Shown in pieces: positions 2,069-28,803 of a stretch of 64,000 nt of DNA. The number at the start of each line of letters is the position of its first letter. Within the stretch, counting starts at the first letter, position 1. The stretch is from Aotearoamyces nothofagi. Lineage: Eukaryota > Ascomycota > Leotiomycetes > Leotiales > Tympanidaceae. The translations under genes were made by a program, and so were the position numbers. The DNA lies in NCBI GenBank assembly GCA_015345905.1, contig JADDTR010000004.1, positions 248,001 through 312,000 on the forward strand, given 5' to 3'. The notes below the pieces were generated by a model. That model saw nothing but the letters and a program-made list of their open reading frames with translations. It had not been told where the DNA came from and searched no databases.

Positions 2069-2365
2069 TAGACTGGCCAACGGTCCAGTTCGGTCCGGTC
2101 TCGAGAGTAATTTGTAGACCGTTTTACAGACCGGACCGTTTCTTCTGAAACCGGACTGGACCATTTCGGAATGGTCCGGTCTAGGACCAGACCGATATTA
2201 ATGGTCCGGTCCAGGTTATAATACTATAGACCGTTTAGATAGTAAGACCGGACCGGACCGTTTCAAAATGGTTCAGTCTAGGAATCTCTGAACCGAACCG
2301 AACCGTTTTAAAACGGTTCGGTTCGGTCCAGAGCAAAACGGTCCGGTCTAAGAAACGGTCTATAA
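2069..2365. repeat. Left subterminal repeat array of the hAT
   Basis: About 300 bp of repeated and self-complementary blocks built from GGTCCGGTC, GAACCGAACCGTTT and AGACCGTTT, in both orientations. The first ~80 bp match the end of the element at 20114-20649 read in reverse. Subterminal repeat clusters are the usual transposase-binding region in hAT elements. That role here is inferred. Confidence 0.75.
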
Positions 2366-2577
2366 CGATTAAATATATTATTAGATTATTTATATTAAAA
2401 TCGGAATAGTTTAAGATTTTACATGTCATTGTATTACTGTTGAGCATTACTGTTCGGAAAACACGGGAATTTTAAAGGCACGATATATCTACAATTCCAG
2501 ATGTCATTGTATTACTGTTCACTGTTACTGTTATACTAATAACTACAAAAGCAGGATTACAGTTAAATTTTTTTTAT

Positions 2578-3263
2578 TTACAAATTGTAGGCCCCTTGGA
2601 CTACTATAGAGGTACAAAACTACTTCACCAGCTGTATATCCTTGCTCTAGATAGTAACATGCTTAGTGTAGATTGTATACATATTGGAAGCTAGAATTCA
2701 TTAGTTATTTCATCATTAATTAATAGGGAGATTCAACTTACCCTTAAAGAACGAGGTCAGATATACCTTATTGGCCTCCTAGAGTGCTAGAATAGCAGAG
2801 GACTAGTACTGCAGACTGCCGTCTATCCTTATGTCCTAGGTGATTTCATGAACCAGGCGCTGGAATGCCAATTTTGGCAGGAGGAACCCAACCTCTTTTT
2901 GGTAGTGCCTGATTTCAAGTAGAGTATAGGCTATTCTTGATTAGTAACTATATACATTAGACAGGGGATTACTTACTGCCTGCCTTTACAGGGCAAGGAT
3001 TGTCCGAGACCCTAGGAGGCCTTGGATAGAGGTAGAGCTCGTCGGCCTTATAGATTCGATCCTATACAGCCTTGGCGATATTATACCACCAGCGGTTTGC
3101 AATTGCCTTGGTGTACAAAGGGATGTATAAAGTGGCACAAGTGCCTGTAATATAAGGTTAATAGTCTGAAGTAATAGAGGGGGAGGAGGGAGGGGGGGGG
3201 GGGGGTATACTTACCTTGGTCTTGAAGGCTGACCTTCTTGGGTGACTTCTTTACCCGAGGCAT
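2578..3263 (-). pseudogene. Histone H3-like (CENP-A-like) relic inside hAT
   Basis: A minus-strand spliced gene. It starts with MPRVKKSPKK, has an intron with GTAAGT donor at 3214, and continues downstream through a histone H3 fold. Readable blocks are KAGTYTLLEIRHYQKE (H3: RPGTVALREIRRYQKS), GFLLPKLAFQRLVHEI (H3: ELLIRKLPFQRLVREI), SSAILAL-EANKVYLTSFF (H3: SSAIGALQEASEAYLVGLF), and MYTIYTKHVTI-SKDIQLVK (H3: [20 protein letters not shown]). Splice joins in the right phase fall before TYTLLEI and before the SNMYTIYTK block. Stops replace glutamines at conserved H3 positions (TAG for CAG), as RIP would do. Loop 1 (DIRIDGSLQYQ, taking the last Q from a TAG) is two residues longer than in canonical H3 (DFKTDLRFQ), the length seen in CENP-A. 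The N-tail is unlike H3. The family call comes from residue pattern only, without a database search. Confidence 0.75.
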
Positions 3264-3776
3264 TGCAAATTGTAATACTATCAGATCAGTTAAAATCTAG
3301 ACGCTCTATATTACTGTTACATATTACTGTACTTACTTTAGTAGAGAGAAGAGGTCTTGAAGAAAAAGAAGGAGAGAGCAGAAGCAGAAGAGAAGGCTCT
3401 CTTTATAGACGAGAAAAAGCAATTCACTGTTTTAGACAGCTATCGCTTCCTTTCAGTGAATTGCTTATTTTAGACAGCGATCAAATAAAGAAAAGGTTTT
3501 ACAATACTAAGCTGTACACTATTGACAACAAAGAAAGCTTCTACCTATTGACAATAAAGAAAGCCTCTGCCTATTGACAACAAAGAATAGTAGTAACCTC
3601 TATACTAAGTCAGGGATATATAAGAGTCAATTCCTCTCCTCGATTTCTCTCTTTTTACCTTCTTCAAGAATCGACTTGAGTTACCTTGTAAGTAGAGCCC
3701 CCTTCTCTTTTTTCTTTGTAACTTATAGTAATGCTCTACAGTAATGCTATTATATCCAATTCTCGATTCTAGCAAC

Positions 3777-4598
3777 ATGGCCACCTCTTTCAATAACTGC
3801 TGTACTATAGTGCAAGAAGATAGTTGTACTCTTATTGCTAAGGCACTGACTGCTGATTGTTAGATAAGTCAATAGATTTTCTCTACTTGTTACTAAGTGT
3901 AATATTGATATCAATATATAGGCTTGTAATCGCTGTTGTAAAGCCTGGGCCAAGAAGGCCGATTGGTCTAAGCTGTCTACTGCCTAGTAGAAGGCCGAGC
4001 TAGATGCTGCCGAAGCCGAGCTAATAGCTCGCTATATCGAGCTTGGCCTAGACTATCAATCTAAACTGACGGCAATTATAGATGCTGAGGCAGAAGCAAT
4101 TGCCGAAATTGACAAGGAGGCAAATAAGTAGATGCTCAAGAACCTGCCTAAAAAGGTTAGTCAAATTGTCTTTCCTTTCCAGAGTACAATATTAATATTA
4201 AATATAAATAGAAAGGAAAGCAGAAGGAGAATAAGATAGATGAAGTAGAGGGTACTATTACCAGGGCCTTTACAAGAAATATAAAGCTGATGATTGAGTA
4301 CTGGGAACATGCTATCATTACTGGTGGTACAGATATTGTCCCAGATGTAACCGAGGCTGAACTGAAGGCTTTTGCTGAGAAAGCAAGCAATCCTAAGGAC
4401 GTTTGCTGCTTCCTTAGCAATCTTGCTAAGGAAGATAACAAGGAGGATAAGGATAAGGATAATGAGGAGGATAATGAGGATGATAAGGATGATGAGGATA
4501 AGGATGATAATATTGAGGTTATCATCAGCGATGATAATGATGACAATAAGGACGACGATGATAAGGAAATAAAGGACTTCATTGTCGATGATAAGTAG
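3777..4598 (+). pseudogene. Coiled-coil protein with long acidic tail, inside hAT
   Basis: Plus-strand reading begins MATSFNNCC and after a probable short intron (to about 3924) continues ACNRCCKAWAKKADW, then an Ala/Glu-rich helical stretch (KAELDAAEAELIARYIELG, DAEAEAIAEIDKEAN). It ends in a ~100-residue open frame (4290-4598) with a tail made almost only of D, E, K and N. In-frame TAGs stand where CAG is expected, so it is RIP-damaged. It is divergent from the H3-like relic with about 510 bp between starts. The tail alone is repeated, RIPed, at 7964-8100. Cys-rich start plus coiled coil recalls small uncharacterised fungal repeat-borne proteins. A basic-protein or histone-binding role is suggested only by the acidic tail and its neighbour. 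Confidence 0.5.
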
Positions 4599-4799
4599 GT
4601 AGATAGATTAATTTAAGTTGCATGTTACAATTTGTTATAGGTCGGTTGTATTCTTATAGGTCTATATACCTCGTTTAAAATCTTTCGTGAATCCGAGTAC
4701 CTAAGCATTACTATAGATCGTTACTATAGACCGGTTTTACCAAACTACATCAGCTATTATATAGATCTCAATACTTCTCTTTATTATATCTCAACTTCT

Positions 4800-7540
4800 A
4801 TCTCAAGACTCGATGTCAATGATATCGCTTCTTAACACTGATGTTAGCGTTGATGGCTCTCTCAACCTTTTGAGTCAAAGAGAAATGCTAGACTTTATAA
4901 AAACGCCAAACTTACATTGTACAATATAGACATCTGACAAAGAGTGAGAATGGTATATATAGTAGTCAGAGAAGGTCTAGGGAGAGCCCTTTGAAAGTGA
5001 ATTTGCTAAGATTATATAGGCAAAGTCCAAGAGGTCCTGAGCTTGGTCTTCCTTCTATCAGGCCATTGAAATCAAGACTGAGAGTACCAAGGTAGTATAT
5101 CGATTGTATTGGAAGGTTTATTCTTATCTCTAGCCTAAGTAATATAGTAGTAGTACTTCTACACTTACTCATCATTTAGAAAGGTGTACAGTTGGAACTT
5201 CTATATAGATACAGATTGACCTAGTGAATATTGTATCTATACAGATATATTTACTTTGATAGTCGAACAGTAACGCTGAATAGTAATACTATATAACTCA
5301 ATAGAGCTCGACATTGCCATTTTCGACTGATAGTTGGTAAGAACAACTATATATCACGATTATATCTACAAGCTTCCTATTCTAAATCATTGAGAACAAA
5401 GAGCTATACAAGACATTTACAATGCTCAGATCTAACATCAAGATCCCAGGTTGTATAACTGTTCACTCGATCCTAGACAAACAGTATAAAAGGGTTATAG
5501 ATAAACTGTTAGTTGATCTACCTTCGATTGGTAAGATATCCCTAGCTCTCGATGGCTGGCAAAGTCCTTTCAGACAATCATTTATAGCCATTCTAGGTTA
5601 TTATATTATAAAGGATTGGAAGTGGAGAGAAGTAATAAGTAGCTTCTTTCTAGACTTAGGGTTATTGATCTATATAGATTCTTATCAGGTTTGAATATAT
5701 CAAAGATATATATATAGGAAGATATATAGTAGATATAGTCTATACTATCATCGATAGATTCTATTTGACCGACCAGATGTTTTGTATAACTATAGACAAT
5801 ATATCTAATAATAGTACTATAAGAAGAGAGTTGGAGTTAATGTTAGATGATATAGAGTAGAAGGCCCAAGCAACAACAATACTGTATATAGTACATATTA
5901 TACAGCTAGTTGTAAAAGCTATAATGACATCATTTCATATAAAGCTAGGAGAAAATATAGACAAGGAGGATAGAGACGAAGGCAATAGAATTGAGCTCGA
6001 TGTCGAAGAGGATAGTAGTGTAGTTGCTGTAATCTAAAAGGTAAGTATAGAACTCTGAGAGTTATAATACCCTACCTATAGTAACACCTGATAGTAATGC
6101 TAATCGATTTACTTTTCGAAGATATATAGTTTAAGCAAGCTTGCTAGTCAGTTGAGTAGAAGGACAGAGCTTTTATTACTCAAGCAGTTAGAGATCGAAT
6201 CTAAACGACTCTTATATATGAAGATTGATATTGATATATAATAGAACTCTATATATGATATAATTCTTTGTATAATGTATCTTTAGGTTCTATTAAAAAG
6301 CTGGTTGGAGACTCAGATAGAAAAGGAGCCAGTACTTGACTGTCTCAACCTGACAAATATAGACTAGAAGAAGCTATAATATCTTGTTATTCTCCTTCGA
6401 CCTTTTGCTGAATTTATAATGCTTCTTGGAACTATAAAGGACACTACTGTCAACTATATCTAGAATGTCTACAACGAGCTATTTATCTATCTCGAGCAGC
6501 TTTGGACCAAGCTAGAGATCAAGGATTTATCTCGAGACCCCTGGATTACTGAGTTTATCACTGCAATAGAGATGGGACTCTAGAAACTTTCAGTATATTA
6601 TTCAAATACTGGTGGTGAAGCTGAGGACTAGTATACTCTTGCTATAATTCTAGATCCCTTACAAAAGCTAGATGTCTTTGCTCAGTTTCAATGGAGTCCT
6701 ACATTTAGAGCAAAATATAAATAGGTGTTCCTAAAGTATTAGAGGAACAATTATAAAGATACAATGTCTGACGACCTTACTACTGATATAGGTTTTGCAG
6801 TTCTAAGTACAATGAAAACCCTCAACTCGATTTTTAGACATCAACGACAAACGCCTGGTATAAGGTCTTTGACAGCAAACTCTATACCGAAGAACGAAGC
6901 AGAACAATATCTGCTTTTGCCTCTTTATTCTACAGATGCTGAAACTTCAGTCTTAGCTATATAGAAGGGACTAGAGAGTTCTTATTCTTCTGTTATACAG
7001 ATGGCTTGTAATATTCTTACTATTCTAGGTATACAAACAGTAACACTAAACAGTAATACAAAGGGCTAACAATTATTTATAAAAGCTGTTGGCTCCGGGG
7101 TTGAAAGAACATTCAATATTGCACGAAACCTACATGAATATTATAGAGCTCAGATGAACCCTAATATAGTCACTAAATCTATAATAGTTAAGTACTTCAA
7201 CAGGTTTAAATAGGAGATACCTAGAGAATAGAGCAATATTGATCATCGATATAGTACAGAGGATATTAATGAGTCAATTGAGAAGAGAGAGAGGGATATT
7301 GCAGCAGAAGCAGAGATATCAGAGGACGAGGTAGATATATTAGACTTACCTCTTATATAGCAAGCGTTATAACAAATACAGAGGATAGGAACATCAATAC
7401 CAAGGCCAAGACGAAAGAGGACATTAGATGATAATCAGAGTACAGACGAATTAAGTCCTATAAAGAGCTAGGCAACTCAGTGAAGAAGAGTTTAGGAGTC
7501 TAATAGTTTAGAAGTCTAAGATACAGAATTGTGATTTTAA
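4800..7540 (+). pseudogene. hAT transposase (RIP-damaged)
   Basis: The order of domains fits the hAT superfamily. A degraded BED-type zinc-finger region lies at about 4960-5190 (ending ...YSSSTSTLTHHLERC, with some cysteines changed to tyrosine). The RNase-H-like core has LALDGWQSPFRQSF at about 5550 (first catalytic Asp in a DGW context) and FCITIDNISNNSTI at about 5790 (second Asp). The C-terminal dimerisation region at about 7085-7215 reads AVGSGVERTFNIARNLHEYYRAQMNP. Several TAG/TAA codons interrupt the frame, so this copy cannot make a full transposase. A charged, acidic tail follows (7260-7540). The same gene is repeated, more damaged, at about 8290-12100. Confidence 0.85.
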
Positions 7541-7639
7541 ATGTAATTGAAATCGAACAGTGTTACTATTGAGCATTACTGTCTATATAACTCAAGCGAT
7601 GTAATTGAAGCTTCTAGTGTTACTATAAAGCGTTACTGT

Positions 7640-7963
7640 CTACATAACCAATAAACGGTCCAGCCTGAACTGAACTGGACTGGACTATTATTTACAGTTC
7701 AGTCTCGAGCTATATAATGTAGACTGTTTTTCGAAGTAGTCTAGACTGAACTGGACTGTAAATACTGGTCCGGTCTTAAGGACTATAATGTAGACCGTTT
7801 TTCAAAGCAGTCTAGACCGAACTGGACTGTAAATACTGGTCCGGTCTCAAGGACTATAATGTAGACTGTTTAAAAATCGAGGTGCTCAAAGACCAGACCG
7901 GACCGCTTTTTACAGGCCGATCTAGTCTGGACTGTTTATTTACAGTCTGGTCTAACCAGTCTA
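7640..7963. repeat. Right subterminal repeat array of the hAT
   Basis: Three near-repeats of the block 'AGACTGTTTTTCRAAGYAGTCTAG...GTCCGGTCTYAAGGACTATAATGTAGACCG' followed by the terminus ending ACCAGTCTA. The last ~120 bp, read in reverse, match the start of the 20114-20649 element almost base for base apart from C/T and G/A changes. A heavily RIPed copy lies at 12217-12531. Confidence 0.75.
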
Positions 7964-8987
7964 AAGAGAAGAATAATAAAGAGAATAAAGAGAATAAAGA
8001 TAAGAATAATAATATTAAAGTTGTTATTAGTAATAATAATAATAATAATAAAGATAATAATAATAAAGAGATAAAGGACTTTATTATTAATAATAAATAG
8101 ATAGATAGATTAATTTAATAAGTTGTATATTATAATTTATTATAGATTGGTTATATTTTTATAGATCTATATACCTTGTTTAAAATATTTTATAAATCTA
8201 AGTATCTAAGTATTATTATAGACTATTACTATAGACTGGTTTTACTAAACTATATTAACTATTATATAGATTATATAGATCTTAATACTTTTCTTTATTA
8301 TATCTCAACTTCTATCTTAAGATTCAATATCTATAATATTACTTCTTAATATTAATATCAACATTGATAGCTCTTTTAACTTTTTAAGTTAAAGAGAAAT
8401 ATTAGACTTTATAAAAATACTAAACTTATATTATATAATATAGATATCTAATAAAGAGTAAAAATAATATATATAATAGTTTAAAAAGGTTTAGAGAAAG
8501 CTCTTTAAAAGTGAATTTACTAAGATTATATAGATAAAGTCTAAAAGGTCCTAAGTTTAATCTTTCTTTTATTAGACTATTAAAATCAAGACTAAGAATA
8601 CTAAAGTAGTATATTGATTGTATTAGAAGGTTTATTCTTATCTTTAGTCTAAATAGTATAGTAGTAGTACTTCTATATTTATCTATTATTTAAAAAGATA
8701 TATAGTTGGAACTTCTATATAGATATAGATTAATCTAATAAATATTATATCTATATAGATATATTTACTTTAATAGTTGAATAGTAATATTGAATAGTAA
8801 TATTATATAATTCAATAGAGCTCAATATTACTATTTTCAACTAATAGTTAATAAGAATAACTATATATTACAATTATATCTATAAGCTTTCTATTTTAAA
8901 TTATTGAAAACAAAGAGCTATATAAAACATTTATAATACTCAGATCTAATATTAAGATTTTAGATTATATAACTATTTACTTGATTC

Positions 8988-9504
8988 TAGACTAACTAAA
9001 CTAGACTATAAATAAATAGACTAAACTAGACTAAACTATAAAAAACAGTCTAGTCTAGTCTTTAAGTACTTTGATTTTTAAATAGTCTATATTATAGTTC
9101 TTAAGACTAGACTATAAATAAATAGTCTAGACTAGATTAAACTATTTAGAAATAGTCTAGTCTAGTTCTAGAGATCTTAGACTATTTCTTTTCTAAATAC
9201 TCTAATTACTACTTTTTTTACAATTCTAATATTAAGAGTATTACTATTAAGTATTACTATTCTATATAGATAAAAAAAGTTATAAAATCTTTTTTCTAAA
9301 AATAGTTATAAGAGTTCTAAGAATAGCTCTTTATAGTCTAGTTTAGTCTAGACTAGACTATTTCTAGAAATAGTCTCTATTTTCTATTTGAGACTAGACT
9401 ATTTATTTATAGTTTAGTCTAGTCTAGACCTAAATAGTCTAGTCTTTAAAACAGTTTATAAATTACTTTTAAGACTAGACTAAACTAGACTATTAAACAG
9501 TCTA
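8988..9504 (+). mobile_element. Short non-autonomous hAT derivative
   Basis: A 517-bp insertion that splits the transposase relic. It begins TAGACTAAC and ends ACAGTCTA, and is flanked by a perfect 8-bp duplication cttgattc (8980-8987 and 9505-9512). The intact target is readable in copy 1 at about 5468 (ctcgatcc). It has no coding capacity and consists of inverted AGTCTAGTCTAGAC blocks. It is almost fully RIPed, with very few CC/GG left, so it is older than the insertion at 11040. Confidence 0.88.
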
Positions 9505-11039
9505 CTTGATTCTAAACAAATAGTATAAAAGAATTATAGATAAACTATTAATTAATCTACCTTCAATTAATAAGATATCTCTAGCTCTTAATAGCTAGTA
9601 AATTTCTTTTAGACAATTATTTATAGCTATTCTAGATTATTATATTATAAAGAATTAAAAGTAGAAAGAAGTAATAAATAGCTCCTTTTTAGACTTAGAG
9701 TTATTAATCTATATAGATTCTTATTAGATTTAAATATATCAAAGATATATATATAGAAAGATATATAGTAGATATAGTCTATACTATTATTAAGAAATTC
9801 TATTTAATTGACTGAATGTTTTATATAACTATAAACAATATATCTAATAATAGTACTATAAAAAGAGAGTTAGAGTTAATATTAGATAATATAGAGTAGA
9901 AGATCTAAGCAACAATAATACTATATATAGTATATATTATATAGCTAGTTATAAAAGCTATAATGATATTATTTTATATAAAGCTAAAAGAAAATATAGA
10001 TAAGAAGAATAAAGACAAAGATAATAGAATTGAACTTGATATTAAAGAGAATAGTAGTATAGTTGCTATAATCTAAAAGGTAAATATAGAACTCTAAGAG
10101 TTATAATATTCTATCTATAATAATATTTAATAGTAATATTAATCGATTTACTTTTTAAAGATATATAGTTTAAGTAAGTTTACTAATCAATTAAATAGAA
10201 GGATAGAGCTTTTATTACTTAAGTAGTTAGAGATCAAATTGAAACAACTTTTATATATAAAGATTGATATTGATATATAATAGAACTCTATATATAATAT
10301 AATTCTTTATATAATATATTTTTTAGATTCTATTAAAAAGCTAGTTGAAGACTTAGATAGAAAAGAAGCTAGTACTTGACTATTTTAATCTAATAAATAT
10401 AGACTAGAAGAAGCTATAATATCTTATTATTCTCCTTTAACCTTTTGCTAAATTTATAGTACTTTTTAGAACTATAAAGGATACTACTATCAACTATATC
10501 TAAAATGTCTATAACAAGCTATTTATCTATCTTAAGCAGCTTTAGACTAAGCTAGAGATTAAGAATTTATTTTAAGACTTTTAGATTACTAAGTTTATTA
10601 CTATAATAAAGATAAAACTCTAGAAACTTTTAGTATATTATTCAAATATTAATAGTAAAGCTAAGAACTAGTAAACTCTTACTATAATTCTAGATCTCTT
10701 ATAAAAGCTAGATATCTTTACTTAGTTTCAATAGAGTTCTATATTTAGAGCAAAATATAAATAGATATTTCTAAAATATTAGAGAGACAATTATAAAAAT
10801 ACTATATTTGACAACTTTACTATTAATATAGGTTTTATAGTTCTGAGTATAATAAGAACTCTCAACTTGATTTTTAGATATCAATAATAAATGTCTAGTA
10901 TAAGATCTTTGATATTAAACTTTATACTAAAGAACAAAGCAGAACAATATCTGCTTTTGTCTCTTTATTCTATAGATATTAAAACTTCAGTCTTAGCTAT
11001 ATAAAAGAGACTAGAGAGTTCTTATTCTTTTGTTGTATA

Positions 11040-11575
11040 TAGACTGTCTAATAGTCTGGTTTGGTCTAGTCTCAAGAGTAATTTATAGACCGTTTTAAAG
11101 ACCGGACTGTTTAGGTCTAGACTAGACCGGACTGTAAATAAATGGTCCGGTCTCAAATAGAAAATAGAGACCGTTTCTAGAAACGGTTTGGTCTAGACCG
11201 AACTAGACTATATAGTTCGGTCTAGACTATAAAGAGCTATTCTTAGAACTCTTATAACTATTTTTAGAAAAAAGATTTTATAACTTTCCTTGTCTATATA
11301 GAATAGTAATGCTCAACAGTAATGCCCTTAGTATTAGAATTGTAAAAAAAGTAGTAATTAGAGTATTTAGAAAAGAAACAGTCTGAGATCTCTAGGACCA
11401 GACTAGACCATTTCTAAATGGTTCAGTCTGGTCTAGACCATTTATTTATAGTCTGGTCTCAAGGACTATAATGTAGACCGTTTAAAAATCGAGGTGTTCA
11501 AAGACTAGACTGGACTGCTTTTTACAGTTCGGTCTAGTCCAGACTATTTATTTACAGTCTAGTCTAGCCAGTCTA
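11040..11575 (-). mobile_element. Short non-autonomous hAT derivative
   Basis: A 536-bp insertion in the transposase relic, in the opposite orientation to the 8988 element. Termini are TAGACTGTC and GCCAGTCTA. The flanking 8-bp duplication is gttgtata (11032-11039) and gttatata (11576-11583), one change apart. The empty site in copy 1 reads gttataca at about 6990. It keeps many GGTCCGGTC blocks, so it has seen less RIP than the surrounding host element and probably arrived later. Confidence 0.88.
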
Positions 11576-12531
11576 GTTATATATATAGCTTATAATATTC
11601 TTACTATTCTAGATATATAAATAGTAATACTAAATAGTAATACAAAGAGCTAATAATTATTTATAAAAGCTGTTGGCTTTAGAGTTGAAAGAACATTTAA
11701 TATTATACAAAATCTATATAAATATTATAGAGCTTAGATAAACTCTAATATAGTTATTAAATCTATAATAGTTAAATACTTTAATAGATTTAAATAGAAG
11801 ATACTAAAGGAATAGAGTAATATCAATTATTGATATAGTATAGAAGATGTTAATAAGTCAATTGAAAAGAGAGAGAGGGATATTATAATAGAAGTAGAGA
11901 TATTAGAGAATAAAATAGATATATTAGACTTATCTTTTATATAGTAAGTATTATAATAATTATAGAGAATAGAAATATTAATATTAAGACTAAGATAAAA
12001 GAGGACATTAGATAATAATTAAAGTATAGATAAATTAAGTTCTATAAAGAGCTAGACAACTTAGTAAAGAAGAGTTTAAAAGTCTAGAATATAGAATTGT
12101 AATTTTAAATATAATTAAAATCAAATAGTATTACTATTAAATATTACTATCTATATAACTCAAGTAATATAATTGAAGCTTCTAGTATTACTATAAAGTA
12201 TTACTGTTTATATAATCTATAAATAGTCTAGACTGAACTAAACTAAACTAGACTATTATTTATAGTTTAGTCTTAAGCTATATAATATAGACTATTTATT
12301 AAAATAGTCTAAACTAAATTAGATTATAAATACTAATATAGTCTCAAGAGCTATAATATAGACTATTTATCAAAGCAGTCTAGATTAAACTAGACTATAA
12401 ATACTAATCTAATTTTAAAGACTATAATATAGACTATTTAAAAATCAAGGTATTTAAAGATTAGACTAGACTACTTTTTATAGTTTAGTCTAGTCTAGAC
12501 TGTTTATTTATAATCTAGTTCAACTAGTCTA

Positions 12532-18008: not shown

Positions 18009-18475
18009 CCGCTTACACGTGATATACTGGAAAAGGCATGATCAGAATCAGTGCTATTGGTGCTAAGTCTAAATGCTCCACAATACCGCATAAATCCAAA
18101 ATGACAACTCGAAACAAATGTAGAAGGAAAGGAAAATTCAACAAAAGAGGATAGCAAGCAAGTTCTAAGGGCCATGTATAAAGTAGGGAATGCTCCGAGA
18201 CCTAATCAAAGAAAAGAACAACGGCTACAAGCTGAGCGCGTNCCGCTTACACGTGATATACTGGAAAAGGCATGATCAGAATCAGTGCTATTGGTGCTAA
18301 GTCTAAATGCTCCACAATACCGCATAAATCCAAAATGACAACTCGAAACAAATGTAGAAGGAAAGGAAAATTCAACAAAAGAGGATAGCAAGCAAGTTCT
18401 AAGGGCCATGTATAAAGTAGGGAATGCTCCGAGACCTAATCAAAGAAAAGAACAACGGCTACAAGCTGAGCGCGT
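18009..18475 (+). repeat. 233-bp duplicate flanking an N: assembly join
   Basis: 18009-18241 and 18243-18475 appear identical over 233 bp and are separated by a single N at 18242. This is what results when two contigs that overlap at their ends are abutted with a placeholder instead of being merged. The short frames in the two copies are therefore one sequence counted twice. A real tandem duplication is much less likely with the N exactly at the junction. Confidence 0.88.
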
Positions 18476-19440
18476 CTTGAATTGTTTTAAATGCAGCTAT
18501 CAACTTTGTCAGCTCTGTAAGATCTGCATCTAGCTTTACATTATACTTCTTTTTATACCAAGTAGTAAAAGAAAGAAAGCTAGCCGGATCGAATCCTTCT
18601 TGTACTCCTACCTTTGCAAGCTGTACTTAGACCTTGACTACAGGTTGCACTTCGGCCTTGATTGATCGCGAGACTAACGCTCCAACAAATGGAAAGGTCC
18701 TATCTTCAGTTAAAGTTGAGTTGGCCTTTTTTCTATAGATACAAGTGCACTTATCCTCAACTCGATCTCGGCTTTCTAGTTCTTCGTTGATAATATAGAC
18801 TGTATAGAACTGGGCCCTCTCACTTGTTTCTCGTTCTATACATTTCCGAAGCAGGTTATCTATAGCCCTTTTACTTTCTATCCAATCTTAAAGGTCTGTA
18901 TACTATATCTAGATAGGATTTCCTTCTTTCCACTTATATAAGGTATAGATTGCAGGTTCCTTTAGTAGCTCTGGTCTATAGGATTCAGCTATAGTATAGA
19001 GGATCTTGACAAACTCATCTTTCTTAGTCCTTCTACCAACCTCTATTATATAAGGGCAGTTTAGATATATATCAGCTGTATTCTTAGTAAAGTCTTTATA
19101 GAGAAGGACCTTAATATAAGAGCAGACTTATAGTCCAATTGTAACAAAGAGTTGTCTACTATATATCTAGCCTTTTTTATTACCCTTTCTGAAATACTTA
19201 AACTTATATTCTATAATCATTTCTCTATCTTTAGTAAAGTCTAGTTTTCCTATATTTAGTTTGTTTAATTTATATAGGTCTATACCAATGTTGGTTTTAC
19301 TTGTACTATTGTCTATAATACTACTAGCTATAATATTGATAGAAGTAGTATTTATAGAAGTAGTACTATTTCCTCTAGATAATAGAGACTTTAACACTTT
19401 AGACAGTAGCTTCAATATCCAAGTACTAGAATAAAAGCTT
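18476..19440 (-). pseudogene. RIP-damaged unidentified gene
   Basis: On the minus strand one frame runs from ATG at 19415 to about 18480, roughly 310 codons, interrupted by a handful of TAG/TAA codons of the RIP type. It reads like a real protein: LDFTKDREMIIEYKFKYF, NTADIYLNCPYIIEVGRR, SERAQFYTVYIINEELES, and AEVQPVVKV near the end. I do not recognise the family. Base composition is lower in GC at the 5' side and rises towards 18480. It may be part of a repeat or a damaged host gene. Confidence 0.4.
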
Positions 19441-19507: not shown

Positions 19508-20029
19508 TAAACTATCCAATAGTCTAGTCTAGTCTAGTCTCAAGAGTAATTTATAGACCATTTTAAAGACTGGACTGTTTAGGTCTAGACTAGACTAGAC
19601 TAGACTATAAATAAATAGTCTAGTCTTAAATAGAAAATAGAGACCATTTCTAGAAATAGTCTAGTCTAGACTAAACTAGACTATTAAAAGCTATTCTTAG
19701 AACTCTTATAACTATTTTTAGAAAAAATATTTTATAACTTTCTTTATCTATATAGAATAGTAATACTTAATAGTAATACTCTTAGTATTAGAATTGTAAA
19801 AAAAGTAGTAATTATAGTATTTAGAAAAGAAACAATCTAAGATCTCTAGAACTAGACTAGACTGTTTTTAAATAGTTTAGTCTAGTCTAGACTATTTATT
19901 TATAGTCTAGTCTTAAGGACTATAATATAGACTATTTAAAAATCAAAGTATTTAAAGATTAGACTAGACTGCTTTTTATAGTTCAGTTTAGTCTAGACTA
20001 TTTATTTATAGTCTAGTTCAACTAGTCTA
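19508..20029 (-). mobile_element. Short non-autonomous hAT derivative, RIPed
   Basis: A 522-bp element of the same family as 20114-20649 but reversed. It begins TAAACTATCC (from TAGACTGTCC) and ends CAACTAGTCTA. It is strongly RIPed. The flanks attggtag and gtctatag do not form a clear 8-bp duplication, so the insertion site has changed since. Confidence 0.8.
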
Positions 20030-20113
20030 GTCTATAGAAATATTAAGAAACTTATTAATAATAAGCTTTTTATAAATTTCTAAATACTTACTAACAGCTT
20101 CTATTAATATAGA

Positions 20114-20649
20114 TAGACTGGCCAGACTGGACTGTAAATAAACGGTCTGGACTGGACCAAACTGTAAAAAGCGGTCCGGTCTGGTCTTTGAGTATATTGA
20201 TTTTTAAACGGTCTACATTATAGTCCTTGAGACCAGACTATAAATAAATGGTCTAGACCGGACCGAACCATTTAGAAACGGTCCGGTCCGGTCCTAGAGA
20301 TCTCAGACCGTTTCTTTTCTAAATACTCTAATTACTACTTTTTTTACAATTCTAATACTAAGGGTATTACTATTGAGCATTACTGTTCTATATAGATAAG
20401 GAAAGTTATAAAATCTTTTTTCTAAAAATAGTTATAAGAGTTCTAAGAACAGCTCTTTATAGTCTGGACTAGACTATATAGTCTGGTTTAGTCTAGACTG
20501 GACTATTTCTAGAAACGGTCTCTATTTTCTATTTGAGACTAGACTGTTTATTTACAGTCCAGTCTAGTCTAGACCTAAACGGTCCGGTCTTTGAAACGGT
20601 CTACAAATTACTCTCGAGACCAGACTGGACTAGACTGTTGGACAGTCTA
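20114..20649 (+). mobile_element. Short non-autonomous hAT derivative, best preserved
   Basis: A 536-bp element with termini TAGACTGGCC and GGACAGTCTA and a perfect 8-bp target duplication aatataga (20106-20113, 20650-20657). The left ~120 bp match the right end of the full hAT at 7963 in reverse. The right ~80 bp match its left end at 2069 in reverse. The interior is GGTCCGGTC-type inverted blocks plus a TTACTATTGAGCATTACTGT motif, with no coding capacity. It retains many CC and GG dinucleotides, so it is probably the most recent insertion of the four. Confidence 0.92.
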
Positions 20650-22010: not shown

Positions 22011-22256
22011 TTAGTCACTGTCCTCAATACCTTTGAAATCCCTCTCTGTCTCTGGAGGAGATAGTAGATTGTAATCCTCATCAGAACCATTAGGATCATA
22101 TACTACTATAGCCCAACTTGGTGCTAGAACTTTCGCCTGCAAATAGGGATTGTAAGATGCACCCTCTGTATCCTTTACTCTTATCTTTGTCGCTGTCTTG
22201 ATCTTTCTATACCAATCTATAGTACACTCTCTCGGCAATATAGAATGCAGCAACAT
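22011..22256 (-). CDS. Hypothetical 81-residue protein or fragment
   Basis: An open frame with protein-like composition: VLAPSWAIVVYDPNGSDEDYNLLSPPETERD and an acidic end GIEDSD. It begins inside the duplicated segment that flanks the N at 22442, so its 5' end depends on how that join is resolved. The family is not recognised. It may be the last exon of a longer gene truncated by the repeat or by the assembly break. Confidence 0.25.
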   Translation of the reverse strand: MLLHSILPRECTIDWYRKIKTATKIRVKDTEGASYNPYLQAKVLAPSWAIVVYDPNGSDEDYNLLSPPETERDFKGIEDSD

Positions 22257-22707
22257 TTGACTATAAACTTGCTATAGATGCAGTATACAGAGAACATCCT
22301 GTATACAATAGATTATGATATCTCTATTCAGCGGCCCTCTCATCAAAGACGGTGTATTGCCCTCCTCCCTCTGGAGCGAACATATATAACCGTCGTCACG
22401 TGATATACCGGATGACGCCATGCGTGGATGGGTTACTGGGANACTCTTATCTTTGTCGCTGCCTTGATCTTTCTATACCAATCTATAGTACACTCTCCCG
22501 GCAATATAGAATGCAGCAACATTTGACTATAAACTTGCTATAGATGCAGTATACAGAGAACATCCTGTATACAATAGATTATGATATCTCTATTCAGCGG
22601 CCCTCTCATCAAAGACGGTGTATTGCCCTCCTCCCTCTGGAGCGAACATATATAACCGTCGTCACGTGATATACCGGATGACGCCATGCGTGGATGGGTT
22701 ACTGGGA
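22177..22707 (+). repeat. 265-bp near-duplicate flanking an N: assembly join
   Basis: 22177-22441 and 22443-22707 are the same 265 bp with at least two C/T differences, separated by the single N at 22442. As at 18242, this looks like an unmerged contig overlap. The differences could be read errors, two haplotypes or strain mixture. Frames starting MYCPPPSGANIYNRR appear in both copies and are one sequence counted twice. Confidence 0.85.
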
Positions 22708-26573: not shown

Positions 26574-27299
26574 CTCGGTATATCTGAGCACTCTCGTATG
26601 CGCAGCGCTCGTCAATGCAGTCAGTCTCAACGCAGCGCAACTTCAATGCGGCAGGATGAGGATGGAGGGGCGAGCCAGAGCGTCTGTCGGTGTCAGGACT
26701 GCAGTGCAGTAATTGCAGGGCAGTAATTGCAGTGCAGTAATTGCAGTGCAGGTGTTGATTGAGAGATGGGCTGGGGGAGATGTACAAGTACAAGTACAGT
26801 ACGACGCCGGGCACGATGTGTCTGGCGGGTGTCGAGCCCTGTTCGTGGGCTGCGTGCGTGTTCAGCGTGTTCAGCGTGGCCAGTGTGCCAGACCAGAACC
26901 CACCGGCGACCTCCCGGCCTCCCATACGGCCAGCCGCAGCGGAGTCCTCTGCAGAACTTTTCAGTCCCCAGGCGCCCAGGGCCCTGGAGCACCTGCGGCC
27001 TCTATGGTACAGTAGTGGCGACAGGGCGCAGGCGCAGGGGCGCAGGTGCATATATACAGGAAGTGCAGTACAGTGCAGTACAGTACTGTACATTACATCT
27101 AGTACATCCAGTACATCCAGTGTACACTATACAAGTAACCTGTACTTGCTAACCTGTACTTGTACTGATGTACTGTACTGTATGTACCTGTACTCTGCAG
27201 TGCAGTAGAGTGCAGCAGAGACATAGGGGCGCATCGGGGGCTGTAGCCAGGCCAAATAGCTAGACAAGAGTGGGTTCAGTGGGTTCAGTGGGTTCAGTG

Positions 27300-27500
27300 G
27301 AAGAGATGGGCCGGTGGTAGGGTGGAAGGGTAGTGGACGGGTCGTGGACGGGTCGTGGTAGGGTGATGGTAGGGGTGGTAGGGGTGGTAGGGCAGCGGTA
27401 GGGCAGGGTAGGGTGGGAGAGGGTAGGGTAGGGCGGTACAGTGGTAGGGTTATGTAGGGTCGGGTCGTCTACTGGACGGCGGGTGTAGGGGCGTTAGGGC
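27300..27500 (+). repeat. GGGTA/GGGTGGTA-rich strand, G-quadruplex-prone
   Basis: About 200 bp in which the plus strand carries runs of three to four G spaced by one to seven bases (ggtagggtggaagggtag, tagggtagggcgg and similar), far more than the four runs needed for a quadruplex. A preceding triple GTGGGTTCA repeat lies at about 27270-27300. It is not a telomere: units are irregular and internal. Confidence 0.65.
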
Positions 27501-27807
27501 GGTGGACGGTGCAAGTACTGTACCGTACTGTACTGTACTGTACTGCACCTGGGCAGGCTGGATGTCCGTACAGCACAGTACAGCACAGTACAGTGCTTAC
27601 GAGCTACGAGTCACGAGTTACTGTACAGTAGGCGCTGGAGGACGGAGGGTGCAGGCTGCCACTGGTGGCCGCTGGGTGCGGGCGGGGCAGCAGGCAGCAG
27701 GCAGCGGGCAGCGGGCAGCTGGCAACTGGCTCAGACAGTAAGTACAGTACACTCCTACTCGCTGTCGGGTTTCCAGTGGGGCCGTCGACCGCTGGGTCGT
27801 ATAGGAT

Positions 27808-28235
27808 AGTACAGTATACTTAGAGCAGTACAGTACAGTACAGTATACTTAGGACAGTACAGTATACTCAGTATTGTACAGTATACTTAGAGCAGTATAG
27901 TACAGTACAGTATACTTAGGACAGTACAGTATACTCAGTATTGTACAGTATACTTAGAGCAGTACAGTACAGTACAGTATACTTAGGACAGTACAGTATA
28001 CTTAGGACAGTACAGTATACTCAGTATTGTACAGTATACTTGGGGCAGTATAGTATATTTAGGGCAGTACAGTATAGTACAGTATACTTAGGACAGTACA
28101 GTATACTCAGTATTGTACAGTATACTTAGAGCAGTACAGTACAGTACAGTATACTTAGGACAGTACAGTATACTCAGTACAGTACAGTACACTTAGGGCA
28201 GTACAGTATATTTAGGGCAGTACAATACAGTACTG
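27808..28235 (+). repeat. GTACAGTATACTTAGGACA higher-order minisatellite
   Basis: About 430 bp built from GTACAGTATACTTAGGRCA units, combined into a higher-order repeat. The marker GTATTGTACAGTATAC recurs at about 27871, 27938, 28024 and 28110, giving spacings of 67, 86 and 86 bp. Units contain the palindromes GTATAC and TGTACA and are rich in TACAGTA. No terminal inverted repeats or coding capacity were seen. Confidence 0.85.
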
Positions 28236-28803
28236 TACAGTAGAAGACGACGCCGTGGGTACCCTGTAACCTCCCTCCTCTGCTTATCGTGGCTTTCATG
28301 GGGGCAAGCCCCCAAACCCCCGGCCTCGCTGCGCTCGCTTGGATGGCAGGTGCACTGTGCTTGTACAGTGCATGCCATGCACTCGACGGTAAGTACATCG
28401 ACGGTATGTACATCGACGGTACTATACTGTATACACGGCTATACTGTGCAGAGCAGAGGCCTGTGAGGTTTGAAGCTGAGGCCGGCCGGGATGCGATGGG
28501 ATGGGTGGATGGGAGGGACAACTCCGTACCTGTACAGTACGTACTGTGCGGCAAGAGCTGTGCCCTGGCTACTCAGGCCCCATCCCTACTGCCCCTACTG
28601 CCCCTACCGTCCCTGCCGTCCCTGCCGCACCGCCCGTGCCTGGGTCTCGCCCTGGGAGTGCAGCCTTTCCGCCCTCTGCTCTAGCTACTGTAGGTACAGT
28701 ACTGCTGCTTCCTTCCTGTTCAGCGACCCTGCCCACCGCGAGCCAGGCGCATGCACACTGGCAGGCCACATACGGGGTTGCCATATTGTACAGCAATCTT
28801 ACT

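Follow-up and report, generated by a model that had tools for sequence, protein, structure and literature searches.

The whole 64-kb stretch of DNA that was analysed, here called the window, contains a hAT transposon (element A) in which three genes can be found between the ends, namely, in this order, a histone-H3-like gene (H3L) on the minus strand, and a central open reading frame (ORF) and a hAT transposase gene on the plus strand. Copy B, a second, incomplete version of this hAT, adjoins the right end of element A, and three short non-autonomous elements (MITEs) share the ends of A (Table 1). Host genes in the window include Nuf2 and an adaptin; together with the mutational signature described below, they would fit a filamentous ascomycete as host. 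Scanning the window with Rfam and for tRNA genes gave no hits.

Table 1. Position of element A, its genes and related sequences in the window (RIP, repeat-induced point mutation; TSD, target-site duplication).
Feature	Position	Strand	Evidence and remarks
Element A, hAT transposon, 5,895 bp	2069-7963	plus	Left-type to right-type end; terminal motif TAGACTGG(C/T)(C/T)A
TTACTGT/ACAGTAA motifs, 12 dispersed sites	2432-7640		Near both ends and in spacers; possible subterminal repeats
H3L, histone-H3-like gene	2578-3263	minus	Splice model, PF00125, PDB H3, RIP-type differences
Central ORF	3777-4598	plus	Blocks 3777-3860, 3922-4155 and about 4212-4598; divergent from H3L
hAT transposase gene	4920-7240 (approximate limits)	plus	In pieces, broken by stops; C-end dimerisation region
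Copy B, partial hAT copy, heavily RIP-mutated	7964-12531	plus	blastn 80-85%, three co-linear pieces
MITE 1, same ends as A, inserted in copy B	8988-9504	minus	TSD CTTGATTC / CTTGATTC
MITE 2, same ends as A, in copy B	11040-11575	plus	TSD GTTGTATA / GTTATATA, one mismatch
MITE 3, same ends as A	20114-20649	minus	TSD AATATAGA / AATATAGA

The reading of H3L starts with an ATG at 3263 and runs through four exons (3263-3215, 3144-2977, 2930-2742 and 2690-2578) up to a TAA stop at 2580-2578. The three introns, of 70, 46 and 51 nt, are each of the form GTAAGT...AG and in phase 1, and their removal restores the H3 frame; a spliced minus-strand reading with introns at phase-correct places, as an earlier note made from the sequence had proposed, is thus confirmed. 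A histone profile search, suggested there as a check, was performed on the product with X written at the stops. It matched the Pfam family Histone PF00125 over residues 70-157 (1.1e-18; 68.1 bits for a cut-off of 26.4), while the top PDB chain was a histone H3 (2.3e-21), with H3 chains spanning residues 63-159. According to both searches, H3L has a core histone fold with an H3-type alpha-N helix. The four helix blocks each align with H3 free of gaps, as had been claimed, and an insertion of two residues lies between alpha-1 and alpha-2, so that loop 1 is 2 residues longer than in H3 and equal in length to that of human CENP-A. When H3 was compared by tblastn with the full 64-kb window, H3L scored 61.2 bits and the runner-up 18.5 bits; in a first-order Markov control (500 resamplings of element A), the top H3 match reached 23.5 bits.

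With regard to the type of H3, identity amounts to 44/87 with metazoan H3 and likewise to 44/87 with yeast H3, and to 47/87 with a filamentous-ascomycete H3. Identity to CenH3 is lower (Cse4, 33/79; human CENP-A, 29/79), and a closer relationship of H3L to CENP-A/Cse4 than to H3 is thus contradicted with these two CenH3 references. The canonical H3 N-terminal tail is absent, the Pfam and PDB matches starting at residue 63-70, and the C-terminus also differs from that of canonical H3. The gene model is least secure in its N-terminal part, because residues 1 to about 65 are unlike the H3 tail and because exon 2 can be read in another frame with just one stop. Pfam gave no match for this alternative frame (74 aa, 2986-3210), and an alternative splicing, with a start one base later and a different acceptor for intron 2, was dropped for the four-exon phase-1 model. 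The single-sequence structure prediction of exon 2 displays one helix at low certainty (mean pLDDT 61.1). No relatives of exon 3 were found in viral contigs or prokaryote genomes, which says little as these are non-fungal collections.

Element A starts at 2069 with TAGACTGGCCAA, and short terminal inverted repeats are present as TAGACTGG at each end. Over 75 bases and with transitions allowed, the left end shows an agreement of 0.95 with all four other left-type ends and of 0.53-0.61 with five right-type ends. For the right end, at 7963, the agreement is 0.97-0.99 with three other right-type ends; that of copy B, the only remaining one, was compared one base off (12532). The location of H3L between both termini, as stated in the earlier note, is in accordance with these matches. 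An 8-bp target-site duplication is usual for hAT elements. Around element A none was found, the flanks being ACTAATTG and AAGAGAAG, and a scan around A for paired termini bordered by an 8-bp duplication returned one poor candidate (2162-7672, with 11/16 end bases and one TSD mismatch); in the control, one of 20 random host stretches also yielded a candidate. Because there is no such duplication and the scan yielded one poor candidate, we infer, rather than read directly, that the two ends of A come from one insertion. TTACTGT sites are concentrated in the element, which holds 12 of the 29 in the window where 2.7 would be expected from its length. These TTACTGT/ACAGTAA sites could possibly act as subterminal repeats bound by the transposase.

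The central ORF has an acidic C-terminus with a run of Asp and Glu, and its second block holds three interior TAGs. Neither a Pfam family over cut-off nor a PDB match was obtained for it, and no relatives were found in viral contigs, a non-fungal collection that says little in this respect; the structure predicted from a single piece of it is helical and of low certainty (pLDDT 58.9). The transposase gene is interrupted mainly by TAG, with a few TGA and TAA. After removal of one predicted intron and with X at the stops, its C-terminal region was identified as Dimer_Tnp_hAT PF05699 (6.5e-6; 26.3 bits for a cut-off of 21.4). The N-terminal part is weakly BED-like (zf-BED, E 0.73, under cut-off). 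Six other pieces, the BED-like one among them, matched no hAT family in Pfam, and one piece searched in PDB gave no match. The PF00125 match, the H3 chains in PDB, the ends of the element and PF05699 together support the presence of an H3-derived gene inside a hAT, which was the central proposal of the earlier note.

Copy B covers the hAT from the acidic C-terminus of the central ORF as far as the right end, does not include the H3L end, and is the only other sizeable copy of this hAT in the window. It is probably older than element A. Since the two copies meet at the exact right end of A, it is more plausible that A inserted into B than that copy B arose by tandem duplication of A. As the left half of B is missing and the two flanks of A differ, a rearrangement may have come after such an insertion. 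The three MITEs, of about 0.5 kb, are bordered by 8-bp duplications (two exact and one with a mismatch) and may have been moved by the transposase of the H3L-bearing hAT; a fourth candidate, at 19508-20034, has no 8-bp duplication. When the window was searched for additional remnants with RIP-type changes tolerated, three borderline matches to the H3L end (66-67/80) and none to the N-terminal part of the central ORF were obtained, the transposase control reaching 80/80.

From element A to copy B, 623 differences can be counted in 3651 aligned columns, and 574 of them are C>T or G>A. These figures come from four aligned pieces, in one of which (125 columns) the right end of A is set against a MITE instead of the end of copy B, and overlaps of about 30 columns between co-linear pieces are counted twice. 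Changes of C depend on the following base, with 274/351 sites changed in CA, 102/138 in CG, 96/199 in CC and 101/590 in CT contexts. This is the pattern of RIP. At the level of triplets, CAG is changed more often (90/109 sites) than CAA (88/136 sites), which explains why the stops are mostly TAG. The reading frame of H3L is not intact, and its six interior stops are all TAG. The claim that TAG stands exactly where H3 has Gln applies to the four stops inside the histone fold, three of which are opposite Gln in both metazoan and yeast H3, while the one at residue 150 is opposite Gln in yeast H3 only (Met in metazoan H3); it does not apply to the stop at residue 44, in a stretch without similarity to H3, or to that at residue 159, opposite Arg. 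Among the amino-acid differences from metazoan H3, 19/36 can be reached by C>T/G>A alone, compared with 2/36 for the reverse changes and with a mean of 6.5 in shuffled controls, none of 2000 shuffles reaching 19. The values are 16/37 for yeast H3 (0/2000 shuffles) and 15/34 for the filamentous-ascomycete H3 (1/2000). Considering this excess of RIP-type differences, some of the divergence of H3L from H3 probably reflects mutational damage, before which the gene would have been nearer to H3. RIP has inactivated both H3L and the element around it, a point absent from the earlier note; since H3L is dead in this copy, what is left is a fossil rather than an active system.

Other repeats and biased stretches can be found in the window. 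To the left of element A, positions 1-2060 are RIP-like (TA/AT of 1.16-1.4) and harbor several short open frames that by eye resemble retroelement remnants. Near-perfect tandem duplications at 18009-18476 (234 bp x 2) and 22177-22707 (266 bp x 2), both at 99%, flank an AT-rich RIP-mutated block. A satellite-like array of AGTACAGTATACT units with a period of about 67 occupies 27802-28237, and a TA/AT ratio of 3.5 is observed at 27001-28000 amid otherwise GC-rich sequence.

Element A is best explained, with a probability of about 0.85, as a full-length, dead fungal hAT that carries an intron-containing H3-derived gene between its ends. In such a scenario, an ancestral element would have taken up an H3 gene either as genomic DNA or as a spliced copy into which introns came afterwards, and would have travelled with it before landing in an older copy of itself. 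RIP would then have placed the TAG stops and many missense changes in the H3 gene, as well as the stops in the central ORF and the transposase. The H3-like protein would most likely have been a passenger unneeded for transposition, the main rival being a chromatin role for the element.

It is improbable that H3L lies outside the element, as the pseudogene of a host H3 variant or CenH3 beside which a hAT landed. While the lack of a TSD around A and the single gene-bearing copy in view would be compatible with this, H3L is located inward of a left-type end for which four matching ends exist in other copies, with the transposase on the same side, and the TTACTGT motifs of the element flank it on both sides; in addition, the same gene set is described in PMC3538342 for an element from a different fungus. 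Decoding of TAG as glutamine, by recoding or suppression, would leave H3L active and would fit six of six interior stops being TAG and four of them falling on Gln of yeast H3. It was rejected as very improbable, since the preference of RIP for CAG over CAA gives TAG-rich stops unaided, long stop-free frames with known domains are present in the window, and TAA and TGA also occur in the transposase frames.

In another reading, H3L would be no cargo but a permanent part of a hAT lineage whose core genes are H3L, central ORF and transposase; it would have been inherited in common with the Pyrenophora element and would serve, e.g., to shape the chromatin of the element or of its target. This is unlikely, although the three-gene set is the same and the size nearly equal (5.9 kb vs. 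about 5.6 kb in P. tritici-repentis, as given in PMC3538342), and H3L has a loop-1 insertion and a non-H3 N-terminal part, N-tail insertions being mentioned by the same source for its H3L as well. Against it, the residue is kept at 20/36 of the sites that H3, Cse4 and CENP-A have in common and at 19/35 of the variable ones (p = 1.0), eight loop-1 columns and four stop columns being left out. When RIP-reachable changes are set aside and a site is taken as kept if identical to either H3, 6/26 invariant and 8/29 variable sites are changed (p = 0.76). A long-kept working histone is disfavored because invariant sites are kept no better than others; H3L shows no sign of constraint, a result of low power from one RIP-damaged copy that speaks against a core gene. 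The broader proposal of a fungal hAT lineage with its own H3 variant and divergent acidic protein as core genes, spread by descent or horizontal transfer and used on its own chromatin, in which case the Pyrenophora element would be no one-off capture, is likewise doubtful.

The earlier note could name no well-described hAT bearing a gene of this kind, but histone-H3-carrying hATs have been reported from seven Dothideomycete species in the accounts given by PMC3538342 and PMC6710886. In Pyrenophora tritici-repentis, a hAT of about 5.6 kb is described with H3L, a central ORF and a hAT transposase, and its H3L is present in 26 near-identical copies, mostly intact and with ESTs, having N-tail insertions and fully matching neither H3 nor CenH3 (Manning et al., 2013; PMC3538342). 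H3-like sequences are also described in hATs of Pseudocercospora, Cercospora and Sphaerulina (Dhillon et al., 2019; PMC6710886). According to this report, six Mycosphaerellaceae each contain 135 to 784 copies of H3-like hAT sequences, inactivated by RIP with a CA to TA bias; the elements, of about 9.5 kb in P. fijiensis, carry one or two H3 as an intron-less retrocopy, the dimerisation domain was not found, and the presence of H3 is read as a 'recent and independent event' (PMC6710886). Among the matches listed in a literature search of titles and abstract openings, no third report of an H3-carrying hAT was found, PMC4994206 merely citing the Pyrenophora report at the passage concerned.

Compared with canonical histone H3, H3L can be aligned from alpha-N to alpha-3, but lacks the tail and has a loop-1 insertion, six stops and another C-terminus; compared with CenH3, its loop 1 aligns ungapped with that of human CENP-A, whereas its identity is below that to H3. 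Like the Pyrenophora element, element A has a hAT dimerisation domain, a central ORF and an H3-like gene between its ends, a likeness by gene set as described in PMC3538342, and in both the H3-like protein is altered in its N-terminal part and is in full neither H3 nor CenH3. Whereas 26 mostly intact copies are mentioned there, a single one is present here, interrupted by six stops and bearing the signature of RIP. The H3-derived sequence inside a hAT and the inactivation by RIP are shared with the Mycosphaerellaceae elements as portrayed in PMC6710886, in contrast to which element A has three introns in its H3 gene, a length of 5.9 kb and a recognizable dimerisation domain. If the three-gene layout shared with Pyrenophora is homologous, H3L would be a long-standing gene of this hAT lineage, older and more widespread in hATs than in the interpretation quoted from PMC6710886, and it could be asked whether a histone of its own benefits a transposon. 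If H3L is instead a separate capture, fungal hATs would have acquired H3 on at least three occasions, and the reason for this would in turn be worth asking. Element A is a further, dead case of the known histone-carrying hATs, resembling that of Pyrenophora in layout and those of the Mycosphaerellaceae in fate.
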